Origin: Allokutzneria sp. A3M-2-11 16
GTDB lineage: Bacteria; Actinomycetota; Actinomycetes; Mycobacteriales; Pseudonocardiaceae
NCBI RefSeq assembly: GCF_024213555.1
Contig: NZ_JANAVO010000006.1
Location: 62,001 to 126,000, forward strand
Reading direction: 5' to 3'
Length of the DNA stretch: 64,000 nt
Both the position numbers and the translations under genes were made by a program. Position 1 is the stretch's first letter, and every line of letters begins with the position of its first letter. Shown here piece by piece: positions 13,920 to 62,607 of the stretch. The notes beneath the pieces are model-generated. The model was not told the DNA's origin. It searched no databases and saw only the letters and a program-made list of their open reading frames with translations.

Positions 13920-15146
13920 ATGGGCGACACCCGAAGCTCGGGGATGCGGTTGCGCGTGCTGGAGACGATCACCGACAGCGCGCTCAGGGAGCTCGAGCTG
14001 GAGAAGTTGTTCGAGGTGCTGCTGTCGCGGGTGCGCGAACTGTTCGAGGTCGACACCGTCACGGTCCTGCTGGTGGACCACAGCGGTGAACAGCTGGTGG
14101 CGCGGGCGACCTGCGGCCTGGAGGAGGAGGTCTTCCAGGGCGTCCGGGTCCGGGTCGGCACGGGTTTCGCCGGCCGGGTCGCCGAGCGCCGGGAGGCGGT
14201 GCTGATCGAGCACGTCGACGAGTCCACGGTGGTCAACCCGCTGCTGTGGGAGCGGGGCCTGCGGGTCCTGCTGGGCGTGCCGATGGTGGCCCACCAGGGC
14301 GATCTGACCGGCGTCCTGCACGTCGGCAGCATGGTGCCCCGCCACTTCAGCGAGGAGGAGATCAGCCTGCTCCAGCTCGTCGCGGACCGGCTCGCGATGG
14401 CGGCGCACGCGTACCGCTCGCGGTCGGAACAGGCCGCCGCGGCGATGCTCCAGGACAGCCTCCTGCCCGCGCGCCTGCCCGACTTCGAGGGCTGGCAGCT
14501 GGCCGCGCGCTACGTCCCCGGCGCCGGCAGCGGCGTCGGCGGTGACTGGTACGACGTGTTCAGCCTGCCGGACGGGCGCATCGGGCTGGTGATCGGCGAC
14601 GTGGTCGGCAGCGGGTTGGCCGCCGCGATCGTGATGGGACGCCTGCGCAGCGCGCTGCGCGCCTATGCCCTGGAGTTCGGCGACCCGGCGCTGGTGCTGG
14701 GCAAGCTCGACCGCAAGGCCAGCCACTTCGAGGACCGCACCATGGCCACGGTCACCTACGCGATCATCGATCCGGTGGCCGGGCGGGTGGAGCTGGCCCT
14801 CGCCGGTCACCTGCCCCCCGTTCTCGCCGAACCCGGGGAGGAGACCAGGTTCGTCAAGGCCAGGGTCGGTCCGCCGGTCGGCTACAACCTGGCGGTCACC
14901 GGCCGCGAGAACGCCGTGGTCGACGTGCCGCCCGGCGGGCTGCTCTCGCTGTACACCGACGGGCTGGTGGAGCGGCGCGGGCAGGACCTGGACAGCCGCC
15001 TGGAGCTGCTGCGCGGCGTCGTGTCCCCGGCCCCGGCGGAGACGACCTGCGTCCGGATCATGGCGGCGCTGGTGGGGGATCAGCCCTCCAGCGACGACAT
15101 CGCGGTACTGGTCATCCGCCGCGACCCTCCGGCCGCCGCAACCTAG
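13920..15146 (+). CDS. GAF-domain PP2C-type Ser/Thr phosphatase (RsbU/SpoIIE-like)
   Basis: The 408-residue protein has an N-terminal GAF domain (about 15-165; FEVLLSRVRELFEVDTVTVLL and VGTGFAGRVAERREAV) and a C-terminal SpoIIE-type PP2C domain (about 190-400). Metal-binding motifs GVGGDWYDVF, IGDVVGSG and SSDDIAVLV are all present, so it should be an active Mn/Mg-dependent phosphatase. Such proteins dephosphorylate anti-sigma antagonists in partner-switching stress pathways. No anti-sigma or antagonist gene is adjacent. The ATG at 13920 follows GGACGGAG. The stop codon lies inside the conserved left flank of hairpin repeat copy B. Confidence 0.92.
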   Translation: MGDTRSSGMRLRVLETITDSALRELELEKLFEVLLSRVRELFEVDTVTVLLVDHSGEQLVARATCGLEEEVFQGVRVRVGTGFAGRVAERREAVLIEHVDESTVVNPLLWERGLRVLLGVPMVAHQGDLTGVLHVGSMVPRHFSEEEISLLQLVADRLAMAAHAYRSRSEQAAAAMLQDSLLPARLPDFEGWQLAARYVPGAGSGVGGDWYDVFSLPDGRIGLVIGDVVGSGLAAAIVMGRLRSALRAYALEFGDPALVLGKLDRKASHFEDRTMATVTYAIIDPVAGRVELALAGHLPPVLAEPGEETRFVKARVGPPVGYNLAVTGRENAVVDVPPGGLLSLYTDGLVERRGQDLDSRLELLRGVVSPAPAETTCVRIMAALVGDQPSSDDIAVLVIRRDPPAAAT

Positions 15147-15151
15147 AGAGC

Positions 15152-15213
15152 CCCGTTTCGTACTCATAACGGGAAAAAGAGCGCTCCCAAATCCCGGCAA
15201 GAGTACGAAACGG
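15152..15213 (+). repeat. GTTTCGTACTC hairpin repeat, copy B
   Basis: Outer arms CCCGTTTCGTACTC / GAGTACGAAACGG flank a centre with AAAGAGCGCTCCC. The left flank (ggccgccgcaacctagaga, 15131-15149) matches the flank of copy D and supplies the TAG stop of the upstream PP2C gene. A right flank (agatct...ccacctcagc...ggatg) also resembles copy D. It lies in a 203-bp gap between convergent genes, together with copy C. Confidence 0.93.
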
Positions 15214-15277
15214 AAGATCTCTAGCCACCTCAGCACAGGATGGGGGTGGTGCGCGTGGACGAGGCGGCGGCGCTTAT

Positions 15278-15338
15278 CCCGTTTCGTACTCATAGCGGGC
15301 TTTGAGCGCTGCCGAACCCGTTATGAGTACGAAACGGG
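15278..15338. repeat. GTTTCGTACTC hairpin repeat, copy C
   Basis: This is one of the best-paired copies. Arms of about 22 bases (CCCGTTTCGTACTCATAGCGGG and its near-complement, one mismatch in the stem) enclose a short loop containing GAGCGCT. It is 64 bp after copy B and just before the 3' end of the convergent hypothetical gene, so the two convergent genes each have a hairpin near their stop. Confidence 0.93.
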
Positions 15339-15349
15339 GTCCGGGACCA

Positions 15350-16234
15350 CTAGGGGACGAGTCGGTGGAAGACGTCGGCGAACCCGTCGTCGACGTGCAC
15401 CTCGATCGTCTGCTCGTCTTCGTCGTGCTTGGTCAGCTGCTGGAACACGCCGTCGTGCCACCAGTAGACGTACGGGGTGATGGGACCGACCTCGTCGGCG
15501 AAACCGTTGAGCGCCATGCTCGCCATCGTGTTGAGCGACACGATGATGCTCTCGTCGCGCGGCACGTGGTACAGCAGCTGGTTGCGGAACGGCATCGCGA
15601 CGAGCACTCCGTTCGGCAGCTCGCGCTCGCCGGTCGTGCGCTGGACGACCTCGTCGAGGACGAGCGCGGTGGAAGCCAGGTACACCGAGCCCATCAGGAC
15701 CTGGACGCCCTCGTACTCCGTGTGCTCATCGGGGACCACGCGGCGCAGGTTGCGCAGGCCCGCCTCGCGCAGGACCTCCAGGCCGTGCCGCCGGACGTGG
15801 TCGTCGTTGAACGTCGACACGGTGTCCGGCAGGTCCAGCGCCAGCAGCTCCCGCACACCGGGGAAGGGCTCGCGGCCGTAGCTCAGCCAGTCCACGGGCG
15901 GTAACCCGGCGGCGTCGTAGAGCCGGAGGTAGGTGCGGTCCAGCAGGTCCTCGGTGGGCACGTCGAACTTGTCCGGCCCGCGCATCGCGGCCTGCATGGT
16001 CGAGAGGTGGCGCTCGACCACCCCGGGCCAGTCCTTCACGGGGAGGTCGCTCACGCTGCGGGACAACGAATCCAGGCCGTACTCGTTGTCGTCGGAGTCC
16101 ACCACGTGATCGGCGTGGACCGTCACGTCGCGCCCGGCTCGGCTCATGGTGCTCTTCACCAGAACGCGGAGCATCCGCGCCTGGTTCACCGTCAACGCGG
16201 GCAGGGCCTGGTCTCTGTCGTTGTTCCTCAGCAC
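15350..16234 (-). CDS. Cytoplasmic protein of unknown function
   Basis: The 294-residue protein has no signal peptide or membrane segment. It is acidic and ends YVYWWHDGVFQQLTKHDEDEQTIEVHVDDGFADVFHRLVP. The central part (VLVAMPFRNQLLYHVPRDESIIVSLNTMA) has a faint resemblance to DUF1444-type proteins, but not enough to name it. The start codon is 58 bp after the end of the dgdA-like gene on the same strand, so they may share a transcript. The gene ends next to hairpin repeat C. Confidence 0.78.
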   Translation of the reverse strand: MLRNNDRDQALPALTVNQARMLRVLVKSTMSRAGRDVTVHADHVVDSDDNEYGLDSLSRSVSDLPVKDWPGVVERHLSTMQAAMRGPDKFDVPTEDLLDRTYLRLYDAAGLPPVDWLSYGREPFPGVRELLALDLPDTVSTFNDDHVRRHGLEVLREAGLRNLRRVVPDEHTEYEGVQVLMGSVYLASTALVLDEVVQRTTGERELPNGVLVAMPFRNQLLYHVPRDESIIVSLNTMASMALNGFADEVGPITPYVYWWHDGVFQQLTKHDEDEQTIEVHVDDGFADVFHRLVP

Positions 16235-16292
16235 CCAGTGACCCTAAGTCGCTCGTTGTCCGCACACGGTCGTTTCGGCCACAGCCGGAGTG

Positions 16293-17609
<1,317 letters not shown>

Positions 17610-17612
17610 CTA

Positions 17613-17625
17613 GGTCGGGCCGACC
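17613..17625. promoter_or_regulatory. Palindrome between dgdA-like and lysR genes
   Basis: GGTCGGGCCGACC is a perfect 13-bp palindrome, 13 bp upstream of the decarboxylase start and about 65 bp upstream of the LysR start. It is a candidate LysR binding site controlling the divergent pair. Confidence 0.4.
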
Positions 17626-17689
17626 GTGCGGGTCCATCGATGATTTATGCTCAGCCTGTTCGGAAGAGCCGATCAATCCGGAGTCTGGC

Positions 17690-18610
17690 GTGCTCAGTCC
17701 GTGGCGCCTGCGCCTGCTGGTCCAGCTGGAGAGCCTGGGCACCGTCCGCGCCGTCGCCGAGGCGCTGGCGATGAGCCCGTCCTCGGTGTCCCAGCAACTG
17801 TCCGTGTTGCAACAGGAAGCACGCGCGACCCTGCTGGAGCACCACGGGCGGCGGGTGACCCTGACACCGGCCGGGCTGCGCCTCGCCGCGCACGCGCGGG
17901 AGATCCTGCGCGCGATCGAGGCGGCCGAGACGGATCTGACCGAGCGGCGCACCGAACCGGTCGGCGAGGTGCGGGTCGCGGCCTTCTCCAGCGCCCTGCG
18001 GGCGGTCGTCCTGCCCGTCGCGGCCGAGCTGGGCCGGACGCACCCGCGGCTGCGGATCACGGTGACCGAGCTGGAACCGCACGACAGCCTGCGGATGCTC
18101 CGCCGAGGGGAGGTCGACCTCGCCGTGGTCTACGACTTCGCGGACGGCTGGCTCCCCGTCGACCCGCAGGTCCGGTATGTGCCGTTGGGTAGCGACCCGG
18201 TCGTTCTCGTTCTCCCACAAGGACATCCGCATGCCGAGGAGGACGCACCGGAGCTGGGTGGGATGGAGTCGGGTGGGATCGAGCTGGGCGCGATGGCGGG
18301 GGAGCGGTGGGCGATGGACCGGCCCACGTGCTACCTGTCGGACCTCGTGCTGCGGCGCTGCCGCCAGGCCGGGTTCGAACCGGAGATCGCCGGGCACTAC
18401 GGCAGCTATCCGTTGCTGCTCGACCACGTCCGGCTCGGGCTGGCCGTCGCCGCCCTTCCGGCGCTGGCCGTGGACGCGCGCGACGGGGTGGTGGTCCGGC
18501 CGATCGTGCCCAGCCTGACCAGGATCATCCGGGCCGCACTGCCCGCCGGTCCGGTGCCGGCCGCTGCGGTCGAACTCGTTCTGGAGCGGCTCCGCGCCCA
18601 CGGCGTCTGA
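17690..18610 (+). CDS. LysR-family transcriptional regulator (DgdR-like position)
   Basis: The 306-residue protein has an N-terminal winged HTH (about 2-62; LGTVRAVAEALAMSPSSVSQQLSVLQQE) and a periplasmic-binding-protein-like effector domain (from about 90; GEVRVAAFSSALRAVVLPVAAEL). It is divergent from the dialkylglycine decarboxylase gene, so it probably regulates that enzyme in response to a dialkylated amino acid. The start is GTG at 17690. The 3' end is 6 bp from the convergent kinase gene. Confidence 0.88.
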   Translation: MLSPWRLRLLVQLESLGTVRAVAEALAMSPSSVSQQLSVLQQEARATLLEHHGRRVTLTPAGLRLAAHAREILRAIEAAETDLTERRTEPVGEVRVAAFSSALRAVVLPVAAELGRTHPRLRITVTELEPHDSLRMLRRGEVDLAVVYDFADGWLPVDPQVRYVPLGSDPVVLVLPQGHPHAEEDAPELGGMESGGIELGAMAGERWAMDRPTCYLSDLVLRRCRQAGFEPEIAGHYGSYPLLLDHVRLGLAVAALPALAVDARDGVVVRPIVPSLTRIIRAALPAGPVPAAAVELVLERLRAHGV

Positions 18611-18616
18611 GGACGA

Positions 18617-19882
18617 TCACGGGTCTCGTTTGGGGTCCCCCTTGTCTCCCGGCCCCGGCTTCTTGCCGCCGCCGTCACCGCCGCCGCCCTTGCCGCCGTT
18701 GTCCGGGGGGTGCTTCGGCTTCCTGTCCTTGGGCGGTGGCTCCGGTTGGGGGTGCGGTACGACAAGCACATCGCGGGTGGTCGGCACCGGTGCCTGCCCG
18801 GTGGTCGGAGTGCCTGGCGGTACCGGCTGGCCGGGTTGGGTGGTCCGGGTGATCGGCACCGCCGGTGGTGGTCGCGGCACCGTCGTTGTCGTGGGCTCGG
18901 CGGGCTTGCCGTTCTCCGAGCGCGGAGAGGTGGAGTCCAGCACGGTCGACGGGAAGAGCAGCACCGCCGCGGCCACCGCCGCTCCGCCTGCCACCAGGTA
19001 GGCGGGCCGGACGCGGGCGCGGCGACGTCGGCCGATCGGTTCGGTGATCGGCTCGGGAGCGGCGGCCGGCGCGATCGTGATCTTGGGGCTGCCGCCCGCC
19101 GCGGCTTCTCGCAGCAGCTCCGCGCAGGTGGCCCCCGCGGGCCGCTGCGCGGGGTGTTCGGCGAGCATCGCCTTGAGGACTCTGGCCACAGCGTCGGGGA
19201 TCGCGTCCGGCACGAACGGGGCGCGGTTGAGCTTGGCGACGGCCGCGGCCGACTCGGGCCCGTCGAACTCCACGTGCCCGGTCAACGCCTCCAGCAGCAC
19301 CAGCCCGAGCGCGTAGACGTCCGCCGCGGCCGTCGCCTCCGCGCTCTGGATCTGCTCGGGGGCGGTGTAGGCGATCGTGCCCATGAACTGGCCGCCCCTG
19401 GTCAGCCGCCGGGCGCCCGAGGGCAGCGCGACGCCGAAGTCGGCGAGGTAGGGGATCTCGCCCCGGCCGAGCAGGATGTTCGAGGGCTTGATGTCGCGGT
19501 GCACGACGCCGCTGGCGTGGACGTGGGCGAGGGCGTCGGCGACGACCGCGCCGACCTCGCACACCCAGGTGGCCTCCAGGGCGCCCCAGTCGAGCTTGTC
19601 CGCGAGCGTCTTGCCCTCGATCAGCCGCATCACCAGGTAGTCCCGGCCGTTGTCGGTGCCCGCGTCGTAGACCGTGACGAGGTTCGGGTGGTGCAGCCCC
19701 GCCGACAGCTGGCACTCGGCCAGGAACCGCGCGCGGTCCACCGACCCCGAGCCGCCGCGGAAGATCTTCACCGCGACGTCCCGGCCCAGGATGGTGTCGA
19801 CGGCGCGGAAGACGTCCGCCATACCGCCCTGGCCGAGCAGCACGCCGAGCTCGTACCGGCCGTCCAGCGTGGTCAACGACAT
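18617..19882 (-). CDS. Membrane Ser/Thr protein kinase with Pro-rich extracellular tail
   Basis: The 421-residue protein has a PknB-type kinase domain from residue 5: glycine loop LLGQGGMADVFRA, VAVKIF (ATP Lys), VVHRDIKPSNIL (catalytic Asp), ADFGVAL, and the activation segment GTIAYTAPEQ. After about residue 260 comes a basic juxtamembrane stretch (IGRRRRARVRPAY) and one membrane helix (LVAGGAAVAAAVLLFPS). The external tail of about 130 residues is rich in Pro, Thr, Lys and Gly and looks disordered. The tail may sit in the cell wall rather than form a folded sensor. The gene is divergent from the GH27 gene. Confidence 0.93.
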   Translation of the reverse strand: MSLTTLDGRYELGVLLGQGGMADVFRAVDTILGRDVAVKIFRGGSGSVDRARFLAECQLSAGLHHPNLVTVYDAGTDNGRDYLVMRLIEGKTLADKLDWGALEATWVCEVGAVVADALAHVHASGVVHRDIKPSNILLGRGEIPYLADFGVALPSGARRLTRGGQFMGTIAYTAPEQIQSAEATAAADVYALGLVLLEALTGHVEFDGPESAAAVAKLNRAPFVPDAIPDAVARVLKAMLAEHPAQRPAGATCAELLREAAAGGSPKITIAPAAAPEPITEPIGRRRRARVRPAYLVAGGAAVAAAVLLFPSTVLDSTSPRSENGKPAEPTTTTVPRPPPAVPITRTTQPGQPVPPGTPTTGQAPVPTTRDVLVVPHPQPEPPPKDRKPKHPPDNGGKGGGGDGGGKKPGPGDKGDPKRDP

Positions 19883-20029
19883 GAAAACGATGATGCCCTC
19901 GCCTCCGCCGCGCGAAACCCACTTTGCCGGTCCACTTTCCTGGCCCGTTCGGACCAATCGCCGTCGCCGGGCTGATTTCTTCGATGTACGTGTTCCCCCT
20001 GCCTCGCGGCAGCAGCACAGTGGGTCGCT

Positions 20030-21952
20030 GTGCGAGCTCTCCTCATGATCGCCGTCGTCCTCGTCAGCACCGCGACCGCCGTCGGTCCCGTCGCCGCCGC
20101 GCCAGCACCGGCTCCACCAGGCGCGACGCGGCTCGCGACGCCGCCGATGGGGTGGAACCACTGGAACCACTTCCGCTGCCGCATCGACGAGAAGATCGTG
20201 CGGGAGACCGCGGACGCCATGGTGCGCACGGGCCTGCGCGACGCCGGATACCGCTATGTCAACGTCGACGACTGCTGGGAGGCCGAGAGCCGGGACGCCG
20301 CAGGTCGGCTGCGGGCGCATCCGGTGACTTTTCCCGGCGGTATCAAGGCGTTGGCCGACTACGTGCACGAACGCGGCCTCAGGTTCGGCATCTACACCGC
20401 CGCGGGCGACAAGACCTGCGAGGGGCGGCCGGGCAGCGGCGGGCACTACGCCCGGGATGCCGCCACGTTCGCGGAGTGGGGCGTGGACTACGTGAAGCTG
20501 GACTGGTGCGGCGCCAAGGGCGATCCGCACCGGCTGACCTCCGAGTTCCGCGCGGCGCTCGACGCGACGGGTCGATCGGTCACTCTCGCGGTCTCGCGGC
20601 ACGGCGCGCCGTGGCGGTGGCCGGACCGGCCCGCCGACCTGTGGCGGACCTCCGCCGACATCGACGACAACTGGCACTCCGTGCTGCGCAACGCCCAGGA
20701 GCAGGCCGGGCTCTCCGGGGCGGCCGGTGCCGGGCGCGGGTGGAACGACCCGGACATGCTCCAGGTCGGCAACGGCGGCATGAGCGCGGAGGAGTACCGC
20801 GCCCACTTCAGCCTCTGGGCGATCACCGGGGCGCCGCTGTTGATGGGCAACGACATCCGCTCGATCGACAAGGCGACGCTGGACGTCCTCGGCAACCGCG
20901 AGGTGATCGCGGTGGACCAGGACGCGCTCGGCCGCCCGGGAGATCGGCTGCGCGGCGACGGCACCCGCGAGGTGTGGGCGCGCGGGCTGGCGGGCGGCGA
21001 TGTCGCGGTGGCGCTGTTCAACCGCGGTCCGTACACGACGGAGATCCGGACGAGCGCGGCGGAACTCGGTCTGCCGTTCGCCCATCGGTACGCGGTGCGG
21101 GATCTGTGGCTGCATGGCCCCAGCATGACCCGGGGTGAGATCGCGGCAAGCGTTCCGCCGCACGGGGTGGCCCTGCTACGCGTGTCGGCAGGTGCGGCCG
21201 GACTCGAGGAGAGGGTCACCCTGTCCGGTGATGCGTCGTTCGTCGAACCCGGCAAGAAGACTGTCGTTCGAGTGAATCTGCGCGGTGGAACGACATTCGG
21301 TGTGCGAGCACCGGAGGGCTGGCTCGTCCGCAAGACCGGTGTGGCGCGCTTCGAGATCACCGCGCCCGCGAATTCGGTTGCTGGCAAGGAAAGTCTTACG
21401 CTGTCGGCGAAACACCGGGGCCGGTGGATCACCGTCGCGCACACCGTGGTGATCGCGCCGCCCCCGCCGCGAGGCGTCCTGGCGCTCTCCGACCATCCCA
21501 GGGTGGAGGCCGAAAACGGCTGGTACCTGCCGATGAAGGTGAACCGCTCGTTCGGCCCGGACGACTTCTGCGCGGACTGCCCGGGTGGCCCGTTGTCCTT
21601 GGCGGGCAAGCGATTTGACAAGGGGCTGGGTACGTACGCATCCTCGCAGGCGAGCTACTACCTCGGCGGGATGTGCCGGAGCTTCGCCGCGACGGTCGGC
21701 GTCGACGACGAAGTGCTCGGCATGACGTGGCCCCGCCCGCACAACGCGGTCGGCACGGCCGCGTTCTCCATCTACGCGGACGGGCGCCGGGTGTACGACA
21801 GCGGAATCCGGACAGTCGGCGGGCCGCCGGGCGAGGTCGACCTGGACGTCCGCGGCGTGCGGGAACTGAGGCTGGTGAACCACAGCGCGGGCGACGGAAA
21901 CTTCGCCGACCACGCTGACTGGGCGGGCATGCGCGTGGAATGCGCGAACTGA
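20030..21952 (+). CDS. Secreted GH27 alpha-galactosidase with NPCBM domain
   Basis: The 640-residue protein has a Sec signal (residues 1-24, ending VAAAPA) and a GH27 TIM barrel starting TPPMGWNHWNHFRC. The catalytic nucleophile is D158 in YVKLDWC. The acid/base is D210 in DLWRTSADIDDNW, and GWNDPDMLQVG follows. After the barrel and its C-terminal sandwich (to about 390) lies a NEW3-like beta domain (about 400-485), then an NPCBM galactose-binding-like module (about 495-640). GH27 enzymes release terminal alpha-galactose or alpha-N-acetylgalactosamine. The NPCBM module and the GH84 gene 13 bp downstream suggest the target is a host-type or glycoprotein glycan. Confidence 0.93.
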   Translation: MRALLMIAVVLVSTATAVGPVAAAPAPAPPGATRLATPPMGWNHWNHFRCRIDEKIVRETADAMVRTGLRDAGYRYVNVDDCWEAESRDAAGRLRAHPVTFPGGIKALADYVHERGLRFGIYTAAGDKTCEGRPGSGGHYARDAATFAEWGVDYVKLDWCGAKGDPHRLTSEFRAALDATGRSVTLAVSRHGAPWRWPDRPADLWRTSADIDDNWHSVLRNAQEQAGLSGAAGAGRGWNDPDMLQVGNGGMSAEEYRAHFSLWAITGAPLLMGNDIRSIDKATLDVLGNREVIAVDQDALGRPGDRLRGDGTREVWARGLAGGDVAVALFNRGPYTTEIRTSAAELGLPFAHRYAVRDLWLHGPSMTRGEIAASVPPHGVALLRVSAGAAGLEERVTLSGDASFVEPGKKTVVRVNLRGGTTFGVRAPEGWLVRKTGVARFEITAPANSVAGKESLTLSAKHRGRWITVAHTVVIAPPPPRGVLALSDHPRVEAENGWYLPMKVNRSFGPDDFCADCPGGPLSLAGKRFDKGLGTYASSQASYYLGGMCRSFAATVGVDDEVLGMTWPRPHNAVGTAAFSIYADGRRVYDSGIRTVGGPPGEVDLDVRGVRELRLVNHSAGDGNFADHADWAGMRVECAN

Positions 21953-21965
21953 GAGGAGGCCGGAC

Positions 21966-24575
21966 ATGCGGGTGTTCTGCGCACTGCTGCTGGTGCTCGG
22001 GCTGGTCTCCGTCGCCCCGCGGGCAGCCGCGGCGCCGGTGCCGGAACTGCTGCCCGCGCCGCAGTCGATCACCTCGGACGGCGCCGCGCTGCCGTTGCCG
22101 CGCGTGGTCTCGCTGATCGCGGCTCCCGGCGCCGACCCGACCGAGGTCGAACAGGTGCTGCGGGCGGCGGGAGTGCGGGAGATTCGGCGCGGTGGCCGGG
22201 CGCCGTTGACGGTGTGGCTGGGCGGAATCGGGGCGACCGAGGAGCTGCGGCGGATCGGTGTCGCCGGTCCGGAAGGGCTCGCGACCGGGGGATACGTGGT
22301 CGCGTCCCGCCCCGGCAGGCTCGTCCTGTCCGGTGTGGACGGTGAGGGCGGGCGCAACGCGGCGCAGACGCTGCGCGGCCTGCTGGCAGGGCGGGGGTGG
22401 CTGCCGTCCGTCACCGTCCGGGACTGGCCCGCGATGTCGTGGCGCGGCGTGGTGGAAGGCTTTTACGGTCCACCGTGGACGGTGGAGGACCGGTTGCGGC
22501 AGATTGACCTCGCCGCCTCGCGCAAGATGAACGTCTATGTCTACGCGCCGAAGGACGACCCCTACCACCGCGAGCGGTGGCGGGAGCCCTATCCGGCGGC
22601 CAAGCTCGCCGAACTCGGCCGGGTGATCGACCGGTCCCGCGCGCGCCACGTGGACTTCCTGTTCTCGATCTCCCCGGGTGAGGACGTCTGCCACTCGGCG
22701 CCCGCCGAGCTGACGGCGCTGGTCAGCAAGGCACAAGCATTGTGGGACAAGGGAACCCGTGATTTCGCGCTGTTCTTCGACGATATCACCGGGCAGCTGC
22801 GCTGCGCCGAGGACCGGGCCCGCTTCGGCGCCGACCCCGCGCCGCTCGCCGCCGCCCAGGCCCACCTGCTGACCGAGTTCGGCAAGGCGTTCCCCGACGC
22901 CGCGCGGCTGGTCACGGTGCCCACGGAGTACACCGGCACGGCGGGCTCGGTCTACCAGCGGCGCTTCGGTGAACTCGTCCCGGCTCGGGCGCAGGTGTTC
23001 TGGACGGGACCACAGGTGGTGTCGCCGAAGGTGAGCACCGCGGACGCGACCAAGGCGCGGGCGGTGTTCGGCCGCGATCTGCTGCTGTGGGACAACTACC
23101 CGGTCAACGACTTCGAGCCGCGGGCGTTGTTCCTCGGCCCGTTGTCCGGTCGGGACGGCGGCCTGCCGGCCGGGGGAGTCGTCGGCCTCACCGCCAACCC
23201 GATGCCCGAGGCGGAACCCTCGGGGATCGCGCTCGCGACCGCGGCCGACTACGCCTGGAACCCGGTGGGGTACCGGCCGGACCGCTCCTGGGCGATCGCG
23301 CTGCGCGAGATCGGCGGCAAGGCGGCCGACGCGCTGCGGGTGTTCGCCGACGCCGCGTACGGCTCGGAGCTCAACCCCACCGAGGCGCCGGAGCTGACCA
23401 GGCGGATCGACGCGTTCTGGGCGGAGCACGCCCGAGGCACGCCGGGTCCGGCGACCAAGGCGCTCATCGAGCGGTTCACCGCGATGGCCGCCGCGCCGGA
23501 CGTCCTTCGGGAACGCATGGGCAATCCGGGTTTCGTGCGCCAGGCCGAACCGTGGCTGACGAAGCTGCGCTCCTACGGACTCACCGGCGCGGCCGCCGTC
23601 GCCGGTCTGGCGGCGGAGCTGCGCGGAGACGTCACCGAGGCGTGGCGCCACCGGGTGGCGGCGGACCGGGCGGCGGAGGCGATCAGCGCCAACCCCGCCC
23701 TGCTGGCAACGGAGGTGATACGCCCGTTCCTCGACCGCACGCGACAGGCCAGCGGTCTGGTCCGGCTGGAGGCAGCCGGGTCGACCCTCACCGCGACCGT
23801 GCGCGCACCCGTCGCCAAGGTCGAGTTCTGGGCGGCGGACAGGCTGATCGGTCACGCCGACAAGGCGCCGTACCGGTTCGAGTGGCGTGACGCCCCTACC
23901 GCGCGCCACGTCCTGACCGCACGCGCGATCGCGGCCAACGGCGAGGCGATCACCTCCGTGCCGGTCCGGCTCACCGTGGGCGCGCCCGCCCCCGCGCTGC
24001 TCGTGGTCGGTCAGCCCGGCGCCGACGCGGCCGTCGCCGACCGGCTCGAACGGCTCGGCCATCCCGTTGTGGTGAAGCAGGCCGCGGCGACGACATCGGC
24101 CGACGCCGAGGGCAAGGCGCTGGTGGTGATCTCCTCGACCGTGGCCTCCGGCGAGGTGAACACGAAGTTCCGCGACGTGGCCGTTCCCGTGCTGACGTGG
24201 GAGGCGTTCGTCCTCGACGATCTCGGGATGGCGCAGGACACCGGCGAGACCTGGCGCACCGAGCGCATCGGCGTCACCGATCCGGGTTCACCCCTGGCCG
24301 CCGGGCTGACCGGAGAGCCCACTGTCTACAAAGGACCCAATCGCGTGCGGTGGGGAGCACCTGCCCCCACTGCGGTGCGCGCCGCGCACAAGGTGGGCGA
24401 ACCACACCGGGCCACGATCTTCGGCTATCCGGCCGGGGCTCCGATGCTCGGCATGAAGGCACCCGCGGCCCGGGTCGGACTGTTCCTGAGCGACGACGGG
24501 CTCGACCCCGATGTGATCAGCGCGGACGGGCTGAAGCTCTTCGACGCCGCCGTGCGCTGGCTGGTCCCGCCCTGA
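21966..24575 (+). CDS. Secreted GH84 beta-N-acetylglucosaminidase, multidomain
   Basis: The 869-residue protein has a signal peptide (to about residue 23). A GH20b/GH84 N-terminal domain (about 28-150) leads to the GH84 catalytic barrel starting GVVEGFYGPPWTVEDR at about 160. The paired catalytic acids are D272 and D273 in FFDDI, followed by VTVPTEYTG and LLWDNYPVND. A helical region runs to about 600, then an Ig-like module (KVEFWAADRLIGHADKAPYRFEW, about 612-660) and a C-terminal amidotransferase-like fold (ALLVVGQPGADAAVADRLERLG onward). GH84 enzymes use substrate-assisted retaining hydrolysis of beta-GlcNAc. It is transcribed with the GH27 gene. The last 59 bp overlap the convergent reductase gene. 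Confidence 0.92.
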   Translation: MRVFCALLLVLGLVSVAPRAAAAPVPELLPAPQSITSDGAALPLPRVVSLIAAPGADPTEVEQVLRAAGVREIRRGGRAPLTVWLGGIGATEELRRIGVAGPEGLATGGYVVASRPGRLVLSGVDGEGGRNAAQTLRGLLAGRGWLPSVTVRDWPAMSWRGVVEGFYGPPWTVEDRLRQIDLAASRKMNVYVYAPKDDPYHRERWREPYPAAKLAELGRVIDRSRARHVDFLFSISPGEDVCHSAPAELTALVSKAQALWDKGTRDFALFFDDITGQLRCAEDRARFGADPAPLAAAQAHLLTEFGKAFPDAARLVTVPTEYTGTAGSVYQRRFGELVPARAQVFWTGPQVVSPKVSTADATKARAVFGRDLLLWDNYPVNDFEPRALFLGPLSGRDGGLPAGGVVGLTANPMPEAEPSGIALATAADYAWNPVGYRPDRSWAIALREIGGKAADALRVFADAAYGSELNPTEAPELTRRIDAFWAEHARGTPGPATKALIERFTAMAAAPDVLRERMGNPGFVRQAEPWLTKLRSYGLTGAAAVAGLAAELRGDVTEAWRHRVAADRAAEAISANPALLATEVIRPFLDRTRQASGLVRLEAAGSTLTATVRAPVAKVEFWAADRLIGHADKAPYRFEWRDAPTARHVLTARAIAANGEAITSVPVRLTVGAPAPALLVVGQPGADAAVADRLERLGHPVVVKQAAATTSADAEGKALVVISSTVASGEVNTKFRDVAVPVLTWEAFVLDDLGMAQDTGETWRTERIGVTDPGSPLAAGLTGEPTVYKGPNRVRWGAPAPTAVRAAHKVGEPHRATIFGYPAGAPMLGMKAPAARVGLFLSDDGLDPDVISADGLKLFDAAVRWLVPP

Positions 24576-25503
24576 CGCCTCGCGAGATCTCCAGGACCGC
24601 CTTGCCGTGCAGGCGGCGTTCGACCAGGGCCGCCACCGCGTCGTCGACGTCCTTCCAGCTGCCGCGCCAGGTGACCTGCGGGTCGAGTGCGCCCGTGTGG
24701 ACCTGGTCGGCGAGCCAGGTCATGTCCGGGCCGAGGCCGGGGCAGTCGAGCAGGAAGAAGGTGACGATCGTCCGCTCGTGGGCGCCCATGCCTTCGAGGG
24801 CGTTGAGCGGGAAGTGCTCGGGCTGGCCGGAGGAGCGGCCGATGGCGACGAGCGTGCCGTGCTCTGCGAGGTGGGCGTGCGCCTGGACGAGATGGGGGCC
24901 GCCGACCATGTCCAGCACTCCGTGCACCGGGGCCTGGAGTTCTTCGGGGCCCGCGATGACCTCGTGCGCGCCGAGGGCGTGCAGGCTTTCGCCGTGCCGG
25001 GCCGGATCGCTGGTGGTGGCGATGACGTGGGCGCCACCACGCCGGGCGAGCTGGACGGCGTAGCGGCCGACCCCGCCGGTCGCGCCGGTGATCAGCACGC
25101 GGCGGCCGAGGAGCGGCCCCACGCGGTGCAGGCCGCGGAGCGCGCTGAGGCCCGCGACGGGGATGGTGCTCATCGCCCCGTGATCGGCATCGGTGGGGAG
25201 GACACCGATCAGCGCGGTGTCCACGGCGCGCAGCTCGGCCCACGCGCCCGCCATGGCGAGCGTGACGACGGGGGTGCCCACGGGCGGGCCGGAGCCGTCC
25301 GCCGCCTGTTCGATCACGCCGGTCGCGTCCCAGCCGAGGACGGCGCCGTCCTCGGCCTCGGCGATGAGGAACTTGACCTCGCCGGAGTTCAGCGAGGTGG
25401 CGGTGACGCGGACCAGCGCCTCGTTCGGCGCGGGGACGGGATCGGGGGCCGCGCCGAGGCGGAGGCCGGTGGGGGTGGAGTGGTCGACGACCAACGCGTG
25501 CAC
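24517..25503 (-). CDS. Zinc-independent MDR-family NADPH:quinone reductase-like oxidoreductase
   Basis: The 328-residue protein has a GroES-like N-terminal domain ([21 protein letters not shown], then [11 protein letters not shown]) and a nucleotide-binding domain with [28 protein letters not shown]. No zinc-ligand cysteines are visible, so it belongs with quinone/crotonyl-CoA reductase-like members. It is divergent from a TetR gene with the palindrome GCCACTGAGTGGC between them, so it is probably the repressed target. Its Arg-rich last residues ([12 protein letters not shown]) come from sequence antisense to the GH84 end and are probably not functional. Confidence 0.88.
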
Positions 25504-25520
25504 GAGAACCTCCAGAAAGT

Positions 25521-25533
25521 GCCACTGAGTGGC
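25521..25533. promoter_or_regulatory. TetR operator candidate
   Basis: GCCACTGAGTGGC is a perfect palindrome 18 bp upstream of the reductase start and 45 bp upstream of the tetR start. It is centred in the divergent gap where the TetR protein would repress the reductase. Confidence 0.65.
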
Positions 25534-25577
25534 AAAAGCGTATCAGCGGCTTTTGGCGCGCCGCTACACTCGGGCCG

Positions 25578-26216
25578 ATGAGCACCGCCGACGCCCGCCT
25601 GCCGCTGCGTGAGCGCAAGAAGCAGCGCACCCGCGAAGCCCTGATCGCGGCCGCGCTGCGGCTCTTCGACGAACAGGGCTTCGCGGCGACGACGCTGGAC
25701 CAGCTCTGCGACTCGGTCGAGGTCTCCAAACGAACGTTCTTCCGCACCTTCACCAGCAAGGAGGACGTGGCCACGGCCCCGCTGCACGACCTGTGGACGC
25801 TCTTCCTGGAGGAGCTGGGCGGGCTGGAGCCGACGGGCGAGACGCTGATGGAGTTCCTGCACGGCGCCCTGGCGGCCGCGCTGCGCCGGATGACCGATCC
25901 GCGCTGGCCGGAGCACGCGCTGCTCTCCCAGCGCCTCGGCGACGGGAACCCCTCGATCGAGGCGCACTGCCTCTACTTCTGCGACAGCACCACGACGACG
26001 GCGGCCTCGATCCTGCGCGAGCGCCTCGCCCTTCCGGATGATCTTCCCGTCCTGCTCGCGCTCGACCTCCTCGTCGCGGCCTTCCACCGCGCGCGCGACA
26101 GGTGGGGCGGCGCGCCGGGACCGGCCACCCGTGACGGCCTCGCCGCCTGCCTGGCCGAAGCCGTCGCCGCGCTGCCCGTCGCCTTCAACACCAAAGCTAC
26201 CTCGATTGCCATCTAA
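25578..26216 (+). CDS. TetR-family transcriptional regulator
   Basis: The 212-residue protein has a standard TetR HTH at about 12-60 ([20 protein letters not shown] and [17 protein letters not shown]). The C-terminal domain matches the TetR group that usually controls an adjacent reductase or efflux gene. It is divergent from the quinone-reductase-like gene across the palindrome GCCACTGAGTGGC. It lies only 24 bp upstream of arsR but has its own promoter region, so a link with the arsenic genes is not implied. Confidence 0.9.
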
Positions 26217-26219
26217 ATA

Positions 26220-26245
26220 GACATCTGTCAATGTAGACACATGTC
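26220..26245. promoter_or_regulatory. ArsR operator candidate
   Basis: Two copies of GACA-NN-TGTC (GACATCTGTC at 26220-26229 and GACACATGTC at 26236-26245) lie 16 bp apart, the second covering the arsR ATG. Paired half-sites at the start of an arsR gene are what a self-repressing ArsR would use. Confidence 0.55.
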
Positions 26246-26585
26246 GAAGCAGGTGGACAAGTGCTCCACGTCGCTGGCGCGCGAGCCGTTGACCGAGGAC
26301 CGCGCGGGTGAGTTGGCGCGGACGTTCAAGGCGTTGGCGGACCCGGTTCGGCTGCGGTTGCTGTCGTTGATCGCCTCGCACGAGGGCGGCGAGGCGTGCG
26401 TGTGCGACCTGGGGGACGCTTTCGAGCTGACCGGGCCGACGATCTCCCACCACCTGAAGGTGTTGCGCGAGGCCGGGTTGGTGACCAGCGAGCGGCGCGG
26501 TACGTGGATCTACTACCGCGCGTCGATCGAAGTGCTGGCGCGGTTGTCGGCCGTACTGGTGCCCGGCGAGGACCGGGCGGCATGA
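26241..26585 (+). CDS. arsR: Arsenical-responsive repressor ArsR
   Basis: The 114-residue protein has a winged HTH of the ArsR/SmtB type (ALADPVRLRLLSLIAS, then LTGPTISHHLKVLREAGLV, then RRGTWIYYR). C53 and C55 sit in EACVCDLGDAF, the helix position used by classical As(III)-binding ArsR proteins (ELCVCDL), and C8 may be a third ligand. It should repress its own operon until arsenite binds. It overlaps acr3 by ATGA, so the two are translationally coupled. Confidence 0.93.
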   Translation: MSKQVDKCSTSLAREPLTEDRAGELARTFKALADPVRLRLLSLIASHEGGEACVCDLGDAFELTGPTISHHLKVLREAGLVTSERRGTWIYYRASIEVLARLSAVLVPGEDRAA

Positions 26586-27658
26586 GCACGACCACGGAGT
26601 CCGTTCCGGCCGCGGGCGTGGCCGGGAAGCTGTCGGCGCTGGACCGGTTTCTGCCCGTGTGGATCGGCGCGGCGATGGTCGCCGGTCTGCTGGCCGGGCG
26701 GTGGGTTCCCGGGCTGGACAACGGGTTGAACGCGGTGACGGTGGACGGGATCTCGCTGCCGATCGCGATCGGCCTGTTGGTGATGATGTACCCGGTGCTG
26801 GCCAAGGTCCGCTACGACCGGCTGGACACCGTCACCCGGGACCGGCGGCTGCTGTGGTCCTCGCTGGCGCTGAACTGGGTGCTCGGCCCGGCGCTGATGT
26901 TCGGGCTCGCGTGGGCGCTGCTGCCGGACCTGCCCGCCTACCGGACCGGGTTGATCATCGTCGGGCTTGCCCGCTGCATCGCCATGGTGATCATCTGGAA
27001 TGACCTGGCGTGCGGGGACCGGGAGGCCGCGGCGGTGCTGGTCGCACTGAACTCGGTGTTCCAGGTGCTGGCCTTCGGCCTGCTGGGCTGGTTCTACCTG
27101 GCGGTGCTGCCCGGCTGGCTCGGGTTGCCGCAGGGCGGCCTGGCGGTGTCGGGGTGGCAGATCGCCAAGAGCGTGCTGATCTTCCTCGGCATCCCGTTGC
27201 TGGCCGGGTACCTGACGCGCCGTCTGGGGGAGAAGGCCAGGGGTCGCGACTGGTACGAGACGAGGTTCCTGCCGAAGGTGGGACCGGTCGCGCTGTACGG
27301 GCTGCTGTTCACCATCGTGGTGCTCTTCGCCTTGCAGGGCGAGCAGATCACCAGCCGCCCATGGGACGTCGTCCGGATCGCGGTGCCGCTACTGGCCTAC
27401 TTCGCGTTGATGTGGGCCGGTTCCTACGCCCTCGGCGCGGCACTGGGCCTGGGTTATGAGCGCACCACGACACTGGCGTTCACCGCGGCGGGCAACAACT
27501 TCGAGCTCGCGATCGCGGTTGCCATCGCGACCTTCGGCGCCACCAGCGGCGAAGCCCTGGCGGGGGTGGTCGGTCCGCTGATCGAGGTGCCGGTGCTCGT
27601 CGGCCTGGTCTACGTCTCCCTGGCGCTGCGCCGCCGCTTCACCGTCGTGTCTCGCTGA
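26582..27658 (+). CDS. acr3: Arsenite efflux permease Acr3
   Basis: The 358-residue protein has ten membrane segments and the Acr3 hallmarks: LPIAIGLLVMMYPVLAKVRYD, the transmembrane cysteine block GLARCIAMVIIWNDLACGD, and FTAAGNNFELAIAVAIATFG. Acr3 (BASS superfamily) extrudes As(III) using the proton-motive force. The start ATG overlaps the arsR stop. A 16-bp gap separates it from arsC, so the three genes form one operon. Confidence 0.95.
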   Translation: MSTTTESVPAAGVAGKLSALDRFLPVWIGAAMVAGLLAGRWVPGLDNGLNAVTVDGISLPIAIGLLVMMYPVLAKVRYDRLDTVTRDRRLLWSSLALNWVLGPALMFGLAWALLPDLPAYRTGLIIVGLARCIAMVIIWNDLACGDREAAAVLVALNSVFQVLAFGLLGWFYLAVLPGWLGLPQGGLAVSGWQIAKSVLIFLGIPLLAGYLTRRLGEKARGRDWYETRFLPKVGPVALYGLLFTIVVLFALQGEQITSRPWDVVRIAVPLLAYFALMWAGSYALGAALGLGYERTTTLAFTAAGNNFELAIAVAIATFGATSGEALAGVVGPLIEVPVLVGLVYVSLALRRRFTVVSR

Positions 27659-27674
27659 CAACCGAGGAGTCACC

Positions 27675-28073
27675 GTGTCCGCTGTTCCCGAGGTGTTGTT
27701 CGTCTGCGTGCACAACGCGGGCCGCTCGCAGATGGCCGCCGCGCTGCTGCACCACCACGCCCAGGGCCGGGTGCTGGTCCGCTCGGCCGGTTCCGCTCCG
27801 GCGGAGTCGGTCAACCCGGCGGTGGTGGAGGTGATGGCCGAACTCGGGCTGGACCTGTCCGGAGAGTGCCCGAAACTGTTGAGCACCGAGGCTGTGCGCG
27901 CGGCCGATGTGGTGATCACGATGGGCTGCGGTGACGCCTGCCCCGTCTTCCCCGGCAAGCGCTACCTCGACTGGCAGTTGGAGGACCCGGCGGGCAAACC
28001 GGTGGAGCAGGTGCGGCCGATCCGCGAGGAGATCGACCGCCGCGTGCGCGCGCTGCTCGCCGAACTCGCTTAG
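27675..28073 (+). CDS. arsC: Arsenate reductase ArsC (low-molecular-weight phosphatase fold)
   Basis: The 132-residue protein has the P-loop VCVHNAGRSQMA (catalytic C11, R17) and further cysteines C65, C85 and C89 (GLDLSGECPK and MGCGDACPVFPGKRYLDW). This is the thioredoxin- or mycothiol-coupled ArsC type that reduces As(V) to As(III) for export by Acr3. The sequence does not settle which thiol system is used; an actinomycete would have mycothiol. The start is GTG with GAGGAG upstream. A hairpin repeat follows the gene. Confidence 0.92.
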   Translation: MSAVPEVLFVCVHNAGRSQMAAALLHHHAQGRVLVRSAGSAPAESVNPAVVEVMAELGLDLSGECPKLLSTEAVRAADVVITMGCGDACPVFPGKRYLDWQLEDPAGKPVEQVRPIREEIDRRVRALLAELA

Positions 28074-28106
28074 GGCTTGTCCCGCATGGCATCCAAGCAC
28101 CCCACC

Positions 28107-28275
28107 CACCAAGTAAGCTGTGCCTATGCGCCCCAACCGCCCCCGCACCCAACGCGAGGCGGCCGCAACCTAGAGATCTCCCGTTTCGTACTCATAGCGG
28201 GGAAGAGAGCGCTCCCAAATCCCGGCAAGAGTACGAAACGGAAGATCTTGGCGGCCTCAGCGGGGGATGAGGGTG
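28107..28275 (+). repeat. GTTTCGTACTC hairpin repeat, copy D with conserved flanks
   Basis: The core hairpin is 28180-28241. Left module 28107-28179 (includes aagtaagctgtgcctatgcg and aacgcgaggcggcc) and right module 28242-28275 (cggcctcagcgggggatgag) both recur around copy E in reverse orientation and partly around B and F. The whole unit of about 169 bp therefore behaves as one element, not just a terminator hairpin. It separates the convergent arsC and ArsO-like genes. Confidence 0.9.
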
Positions 28276-28301
28276 TGAGGCGGATGTGTGTGGGACGCGG
28301 C

Positions 28302-31541: not shown

Positions 31542-31548
31542 GCCGTGG

Positions 31549-38469: not shown

Positions 38470-38480
38470 CCGCGCCCCGC

Positions 38481-38648
38481 CACCCTCATCCCGCGCTGAG
38501 GCCGCCAAAGAGCCCGTTTCGTACTCTTGCCGGGATTTGGGAGCGCTCTTTTTCCCGTTAAGAGTACGAAACGGGAGATCTCTAGGTTGAGGCCGCCTCG
38601 CGTTGGGTGTGGGGGCGGTTGGGGCGCATGGGGTCAGTTTACGTGGTG
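38481..38648 (-). repeat. GTTTCGTACTC hairpin repeat, copy E with conserved flanks (inverted)
   Basis: The core hairpin is 38513-38575. In reverse orientation the flanks match copy D: 38481-38512 equals D's right module and 38576-38648 equals D's left module (ctcgcgttgggtg, ggcggttggggcgcat, cagtttacgtggtg). It lies between the convergent GH94-type and terpene-synthase-like genes and nearly fills the 191-bp gap. Confidence 0.9.
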
Positions 38649-38660
38649 CGCGGGGCGCGG

Positions 38661-53285: not shown

Positions 53286-53326
53286 ACCGGGTGGAACAGG
53301 GGGGCGGCCCGCCTGGTTCCCGGGCC

Positions 53327-56257: not shown

Positions 56258-56390
56258 TCGTGCGCTCAGTATTCGCGGTCGCGCATGCTTTCCTCCTTTC
56301 GTCGGCATTTCGATCTCCAGTATGTGTTTGTCGTGCGCCGGAGCGGTGTCACTGAAATGCGCGACGTGGTGGAAACAATTCTTATGCGGC

Positions 56391-56414
56391 GCAATGGCCA
56401 CATGTGGTCATTGC
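56391..56414. promoter_or_regulatory. 24-bp near-perfect palindrome
   Basis: Arms GCAATG-CCACA and TGTGG-CATTGC pair across the centre with a single mismatched position on each side (G against T). It lies in the 206-bp gap between the convergent MFS and hypothetical genes, in AT-richer sequence than the flanks. It could be a terminator stem or an operator for a regulator encoded elsewhere. Confidence 0.45.
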
Positions 56415-56467
56415 GGGATGAAGCCGCGCAGGAGGGCTCCGGTGATGACCGGCTGTGCGCGGCTCAT
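56408..56467 (-). other. Short coupled reading frame (19 codons)
   Basis: The ATG at 56467 overlaps the stop of the upstream 141-residue gene (ATGA) and encodes MSRAQPVITGALLRGFIPQ before a stop at 56408. The overlap is typical of coupled genes, so this may be the stub of a lost downstream gene or a true small peptide. Its 3' end runs into the 24-bp palindrome. Confidence 0.3.
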
Positions 56468-57111: not shown

Positions 57112-57471
57112 ATGAAGTACGCGATGCTGATCTGCGGCGACGACCGCCAGTGGGCCGCGTTGTCCCCGGCTGACGAGGAGGACGTGATGAAGCAGGTCTA
57201 CGCGTGGTTCGAGCGGTGGCAGCCGACCGGCAAGGTCACCGAAGGCGGCATCGAGCTGCAGCCCCGGGACACGGCCAGGACGGTGCGCGCCGGCGCGAAC
57301 GGCGAACCGGTGATCACCGACGGGCCGTACCTGGAGCTCAAGGAGGTCGTCGGCTCGGTCCTCGTGCTGGAGTGCGACGACATCGACGAGGCCGTGCGGA
57401 TCGCGGCCACCTGGCCGCTCGCCCCGGGGGTGAGCGCGGTGGAGGTCCGTCCGGTGATGAGCCGCGAGTAA
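57112..57471 (+). CDS. YciI/DGPF-domain protein
   Basis: The 119-residue protein has the YCII-related pattern MKYAMLICGDDRQWAAL and the DGPF-like block VITDGPYLELKEVVGSVLVLECDDIDEAVRIAATWP. These small ferredoxin-like proteins are characteristic partners of ECF42-type sigma factors. One such sigma gene lies convergently 23 bp away, so the association is conserved but the usual same-strand order is not. The ATG at 57112 is preceded by GAGGAGC. Confidence 0.88.
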   Translation: MKYAMLICGDDRQWAALSPADEEDVMKQVYAWFERWQPTGKVTEGGIELQPRDTARTVRAGANGEPVITDGPYLELKEVVGSVLVLECDDIDEAVRIAATWPLAPGVSAVEVRPVMSRE

Positions 57472-57494
57472 GGGGCGGCGCCGGGGCGCCGGCC

Positions 57495-58721: not shown

Positions 58722-58843
58722 CCGCGGGACCGGGACATCTCCTGCCCCGTCGTGTCACAGAGATCATCGCCAAGGACGCAAAGCGATGAGGCGAGCGAAA
58801 ATCACGTTCGAACAGCTGCCGCATCGTTCGTGAGATTGCGACA

Positions 58844-62125: not shown

Positions 62126-62142
62126 GGCACCTCCACAGGGGA

Positions 62143-62158
62143 TCGAACATGTGTTCGA
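62143..62158. promoter_or_regulatory. LexA (SOS) box upstream of dnaE2
   Basis: TCGAACATGTGTTCGA is a perfect palindrome matching the actinobacterial/Gram-positive SOS box CGAACNNNNGTTCG. It sits 18 bp upstream of the dnaE2 start, in the promoter region. Confidence 0.93.
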
Positions 62159-62199
62159 TTCGGAGTGAAGCTCCTCGCCGCCGAGCAGTCAAGTTGATC

Positions 62200-62370
62200 T
62201 CAGGGCACGAACGTCAGCTCGGGGAACAGCGGGGACGAGCCGTCCAGCAGGCCGGTGTTCTTGCCGCGCAGGTGAAGGTCGAAGAACGCCGCCACATAAG
62301 CGCGTTGCGCGGCCACCGAACGCGCGGGGTCGACGGTGCCGATCGCGATCTCGCGTGCCAAACCCCGCCA
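62200..62370 (-). pseudogene. C-terminal remnant of an alpha/beta-hydrolase gene
   Basis: The minus strand encodes IGTVDPARSVAAQRAYVAAF then FDLHLRGKNTGLLDGSSPLFPELTFVP and a stop. This is a typical C-terminal end of secreted alpha/beta-hydrolases (polyester or dienelactone hydrolase-like). The upstream part, with the nucleophile and lid, is missing: the frame becomes non-protein-like before repeat copy F. It is a fragment of about 57 codons, too short to be functional. Confidence 0.65.
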
Positions 62371-62447
62371 TTCATTGCCCCAAGGGCATCTAGCCTGCGC
62401 CCTGCAAGCGACCCCGACGACCGTCCGCCCACCCCCCGCACTCTCCC

Positions 62448-62607
62448 CAAACATCCCCAGCGCAGCCCAAAATCCCGTTTCGTACTCAAAACGGGTTTTT
62501 GGAGCGCTCTTTTTCCCGTTATGAGTACGAAACGGGGTTCTCTAGACGGCGCGCGCGGGGGATGGGGTGTGCGGGCGCGTGGAGTGCATGGGCACAGTTT
62601 ACTTGGT
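62448..62607 (-). repeat. GTTTCGTACTC hairpin repeat, copy F with left flank (inverted)
   Basis: The core is 62474-62536 with 22-base stem arms and a loop containing GGAGCGCTC. The flank on the right side (62537-62607) matches the left module of copies D and E, including gcatgggcacagtttacttggtg. It lies between two gene remnants and is the only copy not between convergent intact genes. Confidence 0.9.

Follow-up and report, generated by a model that had tools for sequence, protein, structure and literature searches.

Transcription termination is poorly understood in GC-rich actinobacteria, where U-tracts are weak: an extract of PMC12207403 describes Streptomyces terminators in which the first 10 nt contain only 3-4 U. 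Elsewhere, repetitive extragenic palindromes (REPs) and bacterial interspersed mosaic elements (BIMEs) are hypothesised to act in termination and mRNA stability (portion of PMC3733652), and an excerpt of PMC5217627 reports a dyad 3′-end motif, GAATCCAT(N)23ATGGATTC, in B. japonicum and dyad terminators formed by uptake signal sequences in H. influenzae. Here, we describe a family of palindromic hairpins, six copies of which lie in a stretch of 64,000 nt of Allokutzneria sp. A3M-2-11 16 (contig NZ_JANAVO010000006.1, positions 62,001 to 126,000; hereafter, the window). The element is repeated and lies mostly at gene 3′ ends; the orthologous sites inspected in a sister genome lack it, and one subfamily carries IS5-type ends with YTAR flanks. 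We read it as a mobile hairpin, similar to REPs and to miniature inverted-repeat transposable elements (MITEs) and spread in part by an IS5-type route, which would act as a bidirectional terminator or 3′-end protector; judging from sequence, we give this reading a probability of roughly 0.55. Bidirectional termination or 3′-end protection is the most likely function and a selfish miniature transposon is the main rival; both may hold.

The window belongs to a genome of 8.81 Mb in 43 contigs (the window genome, G000). It was compared with a sister genome (G001), ~88% identical over aligned DNA, and with Allokutzneria sp. NRRL B-24872 (G002), of the same genus and less closely related to the window genome than the sister genome is. 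A sequence-only reading of the window had reported six hairpins, and we find all of them where it placed them, to within a base. As it also stated, five stand between convergent genes, where they share four gaps; the sixth, at 62474, is in a tandem gap. Each copy is a palindrome of ~61 bp, in which the arms CCGTTTCGTACTC and GAGTACGAAACGG enclose a middle of variable sequence, frequently including GAGCGCTC; the constant part of the element is a hairpin with the half-site GTTTCGTnCTC. With up to 3 mismatches, the 14-base arm has 16 matches in the window against 4.8 expected, a count reached in 0 of 100 shuffles, and 12 of the 16 are the arms of the six copies. RNA folding gave z-scores of −6.4 to −9.8 against shuffles in all 8 strand/copy combinations folded, while an Rfam covariance-model scan of the window returned 0 matches at the gathering score. 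The features of the window are the following (ORF, open reading frame):

2584-2646, no strand: hairpin copy 1, in the convergent gap 2583-2670; the sister genome has a gap of ~9 bp at this site
15152-15213, no strand: hairpin copy 2, first of a double, in the convergent gap 15147-15349
15278-15338, no strand: hairpin copy 3, second of the double; the sister genome gap there holds unrelated sequence
28070-28088, + strand: IS5-type terminal repeat TTAGGGCTTGTCCCGCATG, left end of the copy 4 unit, 14/16 informative positions
28114-28173, + strand: −10-like TAAGCT and leaderless-type mini-ORF of 15 codons plus TAG, in the copy 4 unit
28180-28241, no strand: hairpin copy 4, in the convergent gap 28074-28301; unrelated sequence in the sister genome
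28287-28305, − strand: IS5-type terminal repeat CTAAGCCGCGTCCCACACA, right end of the copy 4 unit, 13/16; TTAG flanks both ends
38513-38575, no strand: hairpin copy 5, in the convergent gap 38470-38660; the sister genome has 5.2 kb here, including IS5-family matches
38582-38641, − strand: −10-like TAAACT and mini-ORF of 15 codons plus TAG, beside copy 5
62390-62408, + strand: IS5-type terminal repeat CTAGCCTGCGCCCTGCAAG, on the side of copy 6, 14/16
62474-62536, no strand: hairpin copy 6, in a tandem gap
62542-62601, − strand: −10-like TAAACT and mini-ORF of 15 codons plus TAG, beside copy 6

Pairs of exact arms number 256 in the window genome, 51 in NRRL B-24872 and 1 in the sister genome, with 0 in the other 387 of 390 genomes of the family. 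Searched over 397 genomes of the order (a draw without NRRL B-24872), 9-base arms gave 258 in the window genome, 1 in the sister genome and none in the other 395. Hairpins also stand at contig ends (C21, C33, C64, C312 and C452 of NRRL B-24872 and the right end of C40 of the window genome); thus, the repeats probably broke the assemblies and the copy counts are lower bounds. The exact copy of the sister genome (C1:7429507-7429555) sits 3′ of a gene, the end of which we take to belong to a polyketide synthase, and may have arrived with a gene cluster. A literature search of open-licence PMC papers gave no description of this element among the matches listed, arm-like strings being judged unrelated by title only.

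Placement was evaluated on a 2.03-Mb sample of the window genome that includes the window, in which a codon-based gene caller found 1,798 genes (density 0.89). The sample contains 73 exact copies, two of which, at contig ends, were excluded. Among the remaining 71, we found 41 convergent, 27 tandem and 3 divergent copies, where gap lengths predict ~12, 36 and 22, respectively (P ~3e-14 for the convergent excess and 1e-8 for the divergent deficit); as the sequence-only reading expected, the copies are not scattered without regard to gene orientation. In tandem gaps, 24 of the 27 copies are closer to the upstream stop (median 65 nt) than to the next start (median 153). The family occupies 37/132 convergent gaps of at least 61 bp, 27/436 tandem gaps and 3/287 divergent ones. 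The claim that it fills all real convergent gaps is therefore largely right for the window (4 of 5 accepted long gaps) and wrong for the genome sample. In the window, a sixth called long gap, 45042-45318, was not counted as it is an apparent gene-caller artefact, and the arm search found no member of the family in the gap 56258-56463. In a sample of NRRL B-24872 (0.44 Mb, mostly around its copies), the 19 placed copies are 12 convergent, 7 tandem and 0 divergent; one more was called inside a gene and 3 are at contig ends. At four sites of the window genome sample, two hairpins 62-122 bp apart form double units (C9:63978/64118, C9:77705/77887, C40:32526/32645 and C40:77153/77279, the last being 15152/15278 of the window).

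Each copy, transcribed from either side, would form a long stable hairpin after a stop codon, which would end or protect the transcript. The placement of the copies and the fold z-scores are those of a stable hairpin following a stop codon. The T content after the stem resembles that of Streptomyces terminators: of 142 hairpin sides, 67% have at least 3 T in 10 nt, a level reached by 27% of the 10-mers taken from gaps. The inbound flanks have C frequencies of 0.45-0.50 and G frequencies of 0.19-0.24 on both strands, the corresponding values downstream of stops in gaps that lack the element being 0.34-0.37 and 0.29-0.32; a C-rich, G-poor approach is as for Rho loading. Compensating stem changes in a second genus, detailed below, likewise speak for termination. 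The sequence-only reading had proposed a terminator lacking a U-tract, a REP/MITE-like element or a structured 3′-end RNA; each of these turns out to be partly right, the convergent bias being no proof of a terminator. Mobility, a one-sided promoter/mini-ORF unit and a cousin family in another genus are points absent from that reading.

The hairpins could instead be purely selfish miniature transposons of no use to the host, found in convergent gaps through a CTAG/YTAR preference and the purging of other insertions, an explanation that we consider possible, if on the unlikely side. In its favour, orthologous sites of the sister genome lack the element. When a stretch of contig C40 of the window genome was aligned to 0.3 Mb of the sister genome, eight copies were in or beside aligned stretches; as the 0.3 Mb contain no arm pair with 5 or fewer total mismatches, all eight are without a recognisable counterpart in that sequence. 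At C40:134422 the sister genome has a bare CTAG on overlapping stops and the window genome an insert of ~240 bp. Three copies of NRRL B-24872 with alignable flanks have no copy at the site in the window genome, and one double of the window genome is empty in NRRL B-24872.

The ends of the units point in the same selfish direction. Subfamily A units of the window genome are ~235 bp long and end in CTAG-SCC-NN-GTCC-Y-GCAAG. IS5-family elements of ~930 bp flanked by CTAG are found in the sister genome at C1:2217709-2222959 and at loci L187, L190 and L193; these last three have a DUF4096 match, CTAG on both sides and ends CTAG-GCCGTGTCCTGTAAGT or similar. Of the three, L187 was scanned over its whole length: two of its frames match the IS5-family model NF033580, and the second also matches DDE_Tnp_1. 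NRRL B-24872 also has an IS5-family copy with similar ends. DUF4096 matches number 12 in the sister genome (9 above cut-off), 2 in NRRL B-24872 and only 2 in the window genome, one of which has an internal stop, with no matching ends around either. A parent insertion sequence sought by its ends in the window genome sample was not found there; an insertion sequence with such ends was later located in the sister genome and NRRL B-24872 via PF13340.

In a test of 16 end positions with YTAR required, an IS5-type end was recognised in 20/71 copies of the window genome, 6 of which have one on each side (control, 5/1,576 sides), and in 1/20 copies of NRRL B-24872. Among the six copies with two ends, the two 4-bp flanks are identical in five (CTAG, CTAA or TTAG) and are CTAG and TTAG in the other; with the single CTAG at one empty site of the sister genome, subfamilies A and B thus present a short target-site duplication. 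The target duplication of E. coli IS5 is of 4 bp, CA/TAG/A (excerpt of PMC11677980), and the IS427-group elements of Paracoccus, 832-865 bp long, have 2- or 4-bp repeats (portion of PMC3281130). CTAG is scarce in the window genome sample (626 observed vs 5,605 or 1,724 expected), 401 of the 626 occurrences are outside gene bodies, and 19/323 convergent pairs overlap on it. Genes ending at an element have their stop in CTAG in 38/109 cases, against 10.2% of all genes. The convergent bias of subfamily A has a simple explanation in the presence of CTAG at overlapping convergent stops: convergent pairs would be favoured since their overlapping stops offer the target, and an insertion there would spare both genes. 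This explanation leaves over the bias of the copies without A/B linkers (17/31 convergent) and that of NRRL B-24872, both of which tell against a purely selfish origin.

Two loci of the window genome, L204 (C13:22700-23050) and L207 (C33:511400-511800), have two elements back to back with one CTAG or TTAG in common, as if one had inserted at the target site of the other. Separately, the sister genome has at C1 ~2253568-2254918 a gene, presumably an HNH-type repeat protein, where the window genome has a 3-bp gap, and a similar gene is beside an IS5 copy (L187:317-1435).

The conservation of the arms also weighs against purely selfish elements. Beyond the 73 exact pairs, a relaxed search of the 2.03 Mb yielded just 2 near copies that are convincing; orphan sites resembling an arm, at 2 or 3 mismatches, were at control level, and only 2/148 single exact arms were unpaired, one of them cut by a contig end. 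Nearly all arms of the window genome are exact, in contrast to neighbouring parts of subfamily A, which differ by ~20%: divergence between copies is ~0.17-0.21 per site near the hairpin and 0.10 in the middle, in a set where the choice of copies makes arms and linker constant. We did not retain exact arms as a proof of selection in place, which is weakened by unpaired exact arms in NRRL B-24872 and by a possible recent burst, which the copy number of the window genome may reflect. NRRL B-24872 has 70 forward and 69 reverse exact arms vs 51 pairs; some of its lone arms are at contig ends, others belong to imperfect copies, and one is in its 0.44-Mb sample.

A half-site shared with another genus, with compensating changes there, is a further point against purely selfish elements. 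A covariance model of the Allokutzneria copies was applied to 60 relatives, no more than 77 candidates being scored in each genome, and gave at least 77 matches in the window genome, at least 76 in NRRL B-24872, at least 60 in genome G126, 11 in the sister genome (1 of them among the matches listed), 3 in genome G289 and 0 in 55 genomes. The arms are GCGTTTCGTCCTC in both G126 hairpins among the matches listed and ACGTTTCGTGCTC at the G289 locus. The general pattern GTTTCGTnCTC-N14-44-GAGnACGAAAC is present in 21/390 genomes of the family, three of Allokutzneria and 18/80 of a genus labelled g10, which has 352 copies in all, 1 to 62 per matching genome; in a class draw of 394 genomes, from which g10 was absent, the window genome alone matches. 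All 69 of the 352 g10 copies that were listed (15/18 genomes) have arms GTTTCGTCCTC, vs GTTTCGTACTC in Allokutzneria. In these 69 copies (68 distinct, 20 stem pairs), which were chosen for exact arms, 48 stem cells have both partners changed, where shuffles average 17 and reach 28 at most, and 1,318/1,360 cells are paired (shuffle maximum 1,288), the shuffling leaving relatedness in. The n of GTTTCGTnCTC undergoes a compensated switch, being A in Allokutzneria, C in g10 and G at one locus of genus g30. Of two g10 loci, L211 is between convergent genes, 18 nt beyond the stop of one and 15 nt short of the opposing stop, and L215, in a tandem gap, follows a stop by 6 nt. As judged from these comparisons, the palindrome is older than the genus Allokutzneria. 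Viral contigs gave 0 matches with either the Allokutzneria arm pattern or the general half-site pattern, and phage cargo was rejected on these grounds; a plasmid search with one g10 hairpin found no copies.

A narrower proposal, which we regard as tentative and rather improbable, is that of a lineage-specific 3′-end signal read in its sequence: a dedicated factor, either a terminator protein or an RNase, would recognise inverted GTTTCGTnCTC half-sites, which would be near-fixed per genus, with the compensated switch at n. IS5-type miniature transposons would carry these half-sites to new gene ends, a mobile element thereby providing the genome with its terminators. Less probable still is a dyad site in which the two half-sites bind a DNA- or RNA-binding protein (a nucleoid, silencing or dedicated 3′-end factor). 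The copies aligned for covariation bear on it: from 66 candidates of the window genome and NRRL B-24872 (distinct middles or from NRRL B-24872), three were dropped by hand, leaving 63 selected for exact arms. In these, 13 outer pairs are fixed by the exact-arm choice and two inner positions per half-site are nearly fixed too, while the inner pairs break freely and without covariation; the inner arms CATAACGGG/CCCGTTATG, which the sequence-only reading took as constant, are not so in the window, and inner pairs fail in up to 27/63 copies. Such a pattern, with the few near copies of the relaxed search, would suit a protein site. Conversely, the spacer varies by more than one helical turn (matches of 48-62 nt in NRRL B-24872), and the arms of NRRL B-24872 that have no exact partner, even if some are at contig ends, indicate that exactness is not absolute. 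No candidate protein was found, although no search was aimed at one.

Part of the units also contain a promoter-like module. In 43/71 copies a TAnnnT box, a spacer of ~6 nt and an ATG or GTG are present on one side and never on both, mostly 52-56 nt before the hairpin, the stop usually being 6-7 nt before it; strict −10 boxes are present in 36/71 copies vs 5/3,292 control windows. In these promoter-bearing units the hairpin probably terminates the short transcript begun inside the unit. The module could make the element a multicopy micro-gene, with a leaderless promoter, a transcript of ~110 nt, a 15-codon ORF and a hairpin terminator, its product being a peptide or a small RNA. We consider this very unlikely: the module is missing from 28/71 copies of the window genome and from 14/23 of NRRL B-24872 (present in 9/23), and the mini-ORFs have no third-position excess (0.223/0.205/0.167 in subfamily A and 0.159/0.275/0.188 in B), hence no sign of peptide conservation, for which reason a conserved micropeptide was rejected. 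Locus L203 has IS5-type ends and lacks the promoter part. Promoter modules without a hairpin were also sought: 35 were near a hairpin and the 9 far ones, all at 6 mismatches, were considered noise. A leader-peptide attenuator of a downstream gene, suggested by a mini-ORF followed by a hairpin, can be set aside almost entirely, as the mini-ORFs of the 18 tandem copies run with the genes in 7 cases and against them in 11, and the 41/71 copies between convergent genes have no downstream gene.

Returning to a mobile hairpin that ends or protects transcripts, several observations weigh against it. No strong U-tract is present, with 0/142 hairpin sides having more than 5 T in 10 nt, and a simple terminator scan (loops of 3-8 only) of positions 14000-29000 flagged 0 of 3 window copies. 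The median distance from stop to hairpin is 65 nt for tandem and 76 nt for convergent copies, and Streptomyces transcript ends lie at a median of 66-76 nt from the coding sequence (CDS) according to the extract of PMC12207403; ends located after the hairpin would thus be farther from the CDS than the Streptomyces median. The 63 aligned copies give no covariation beyond that of shuffles, the whole stem being 90.2% paired vs 89.8% after shuffling. In addition, 51/71 copies of the window genome and 19/20 of NRRL B-24872 are below the threshold of the IS5-end test, so the spread of most copies is not accounted for. Lastly, the convergent bias is generic. An unrelated repeat of the window genome, GCGTCTTCAAGTA, has 16/24 loci in convergent gaps, as purely selfish insertion would also allow, and REPs of other bacteria are mainly between convergent and unidirectional genes (portion of PMC3733652); location alone thus proves neither a function nor a terminator role.

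Other repeats were observed in the 2.03-Mb sample. The unrelated repeat mentioned above is a second dispersed palindrome, GCGTCTTCAAGTAC...ACTTGAAGACGC, with its 24 loci, 16 of them convergent (e.g., C1:6163, C1:82576, C1:124342, C1:146987 and ~C11:219100), and at one site it fills the gap of the window genome where NRRL B-24872 carries the hairpin. A third motif, AATGA[CG]TCATTC, has 20 loci, 7 convergent and 9 tandem (e.g., C2:7929, C4:94507 and C9:41702).

If the hairpins do end transcripts, mobile DNA would supply hundreds of two-way terminators, and sister species with and without the element at the same gene pairs would offer a natural experiment on the terminators of convergent genes. 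The family also provides a 3′ hairpin of fixed sequence, present in many copies, that can be studied in GC-rich actinobacteria.

Among known systems, REPs and BIMEs (GTAG- or CGTC-tagged, in the portion of PMC3733652) are similar in being high-copy palindromes by gene 3′ ends, mostly in convergent and tandem gaps; the Allokutzneria hairpin is longer, with 48-62 bp vs 20-40 bp for REPs in the same text. No GTAG or CGTC tag was found at one end in the 63-copy alignment with 10 nt of flank. A REP driven by a RAYT was rejected, as the Y1 (RAYT-type) transposase PF01797 is found in 0/3 of the Allokutzneria genomes compared (G000-G002), with 5/14 control genomes positive. The hairpin resembles MITEs of the IS5 family (IS427-like) in the terminal repeats of subfamily A, close to those of the ~930-bp elements of the sister genome, and in its CTAG-like flanks, and differs in that most copies have no recognisable IS5 ends. 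Correia/NEMIS-type repeats are small and carry promoter and terminator-like hairpin modules, like the Allokutzneria units, and differ in sequence, host and ends. The dyads of B. japonicum and H. influenzae, a fixed inverted pair near gene 3′ ends proposed as terminators (excerpt of PMC5217627), are similar in design. Their sequence is another one. Uptake sequences also differ in occurring as single half-sites, which are almost absent in Allokutzneria. Finally, the GC-rich Streptomyces terminators are not described as one repeated family in the extract of PMC12207403 and the transcript ends there are nearer to the CDS, whereas a long stable hairpin and a weak U-tract, with 3-4 U in 10, are common to both.

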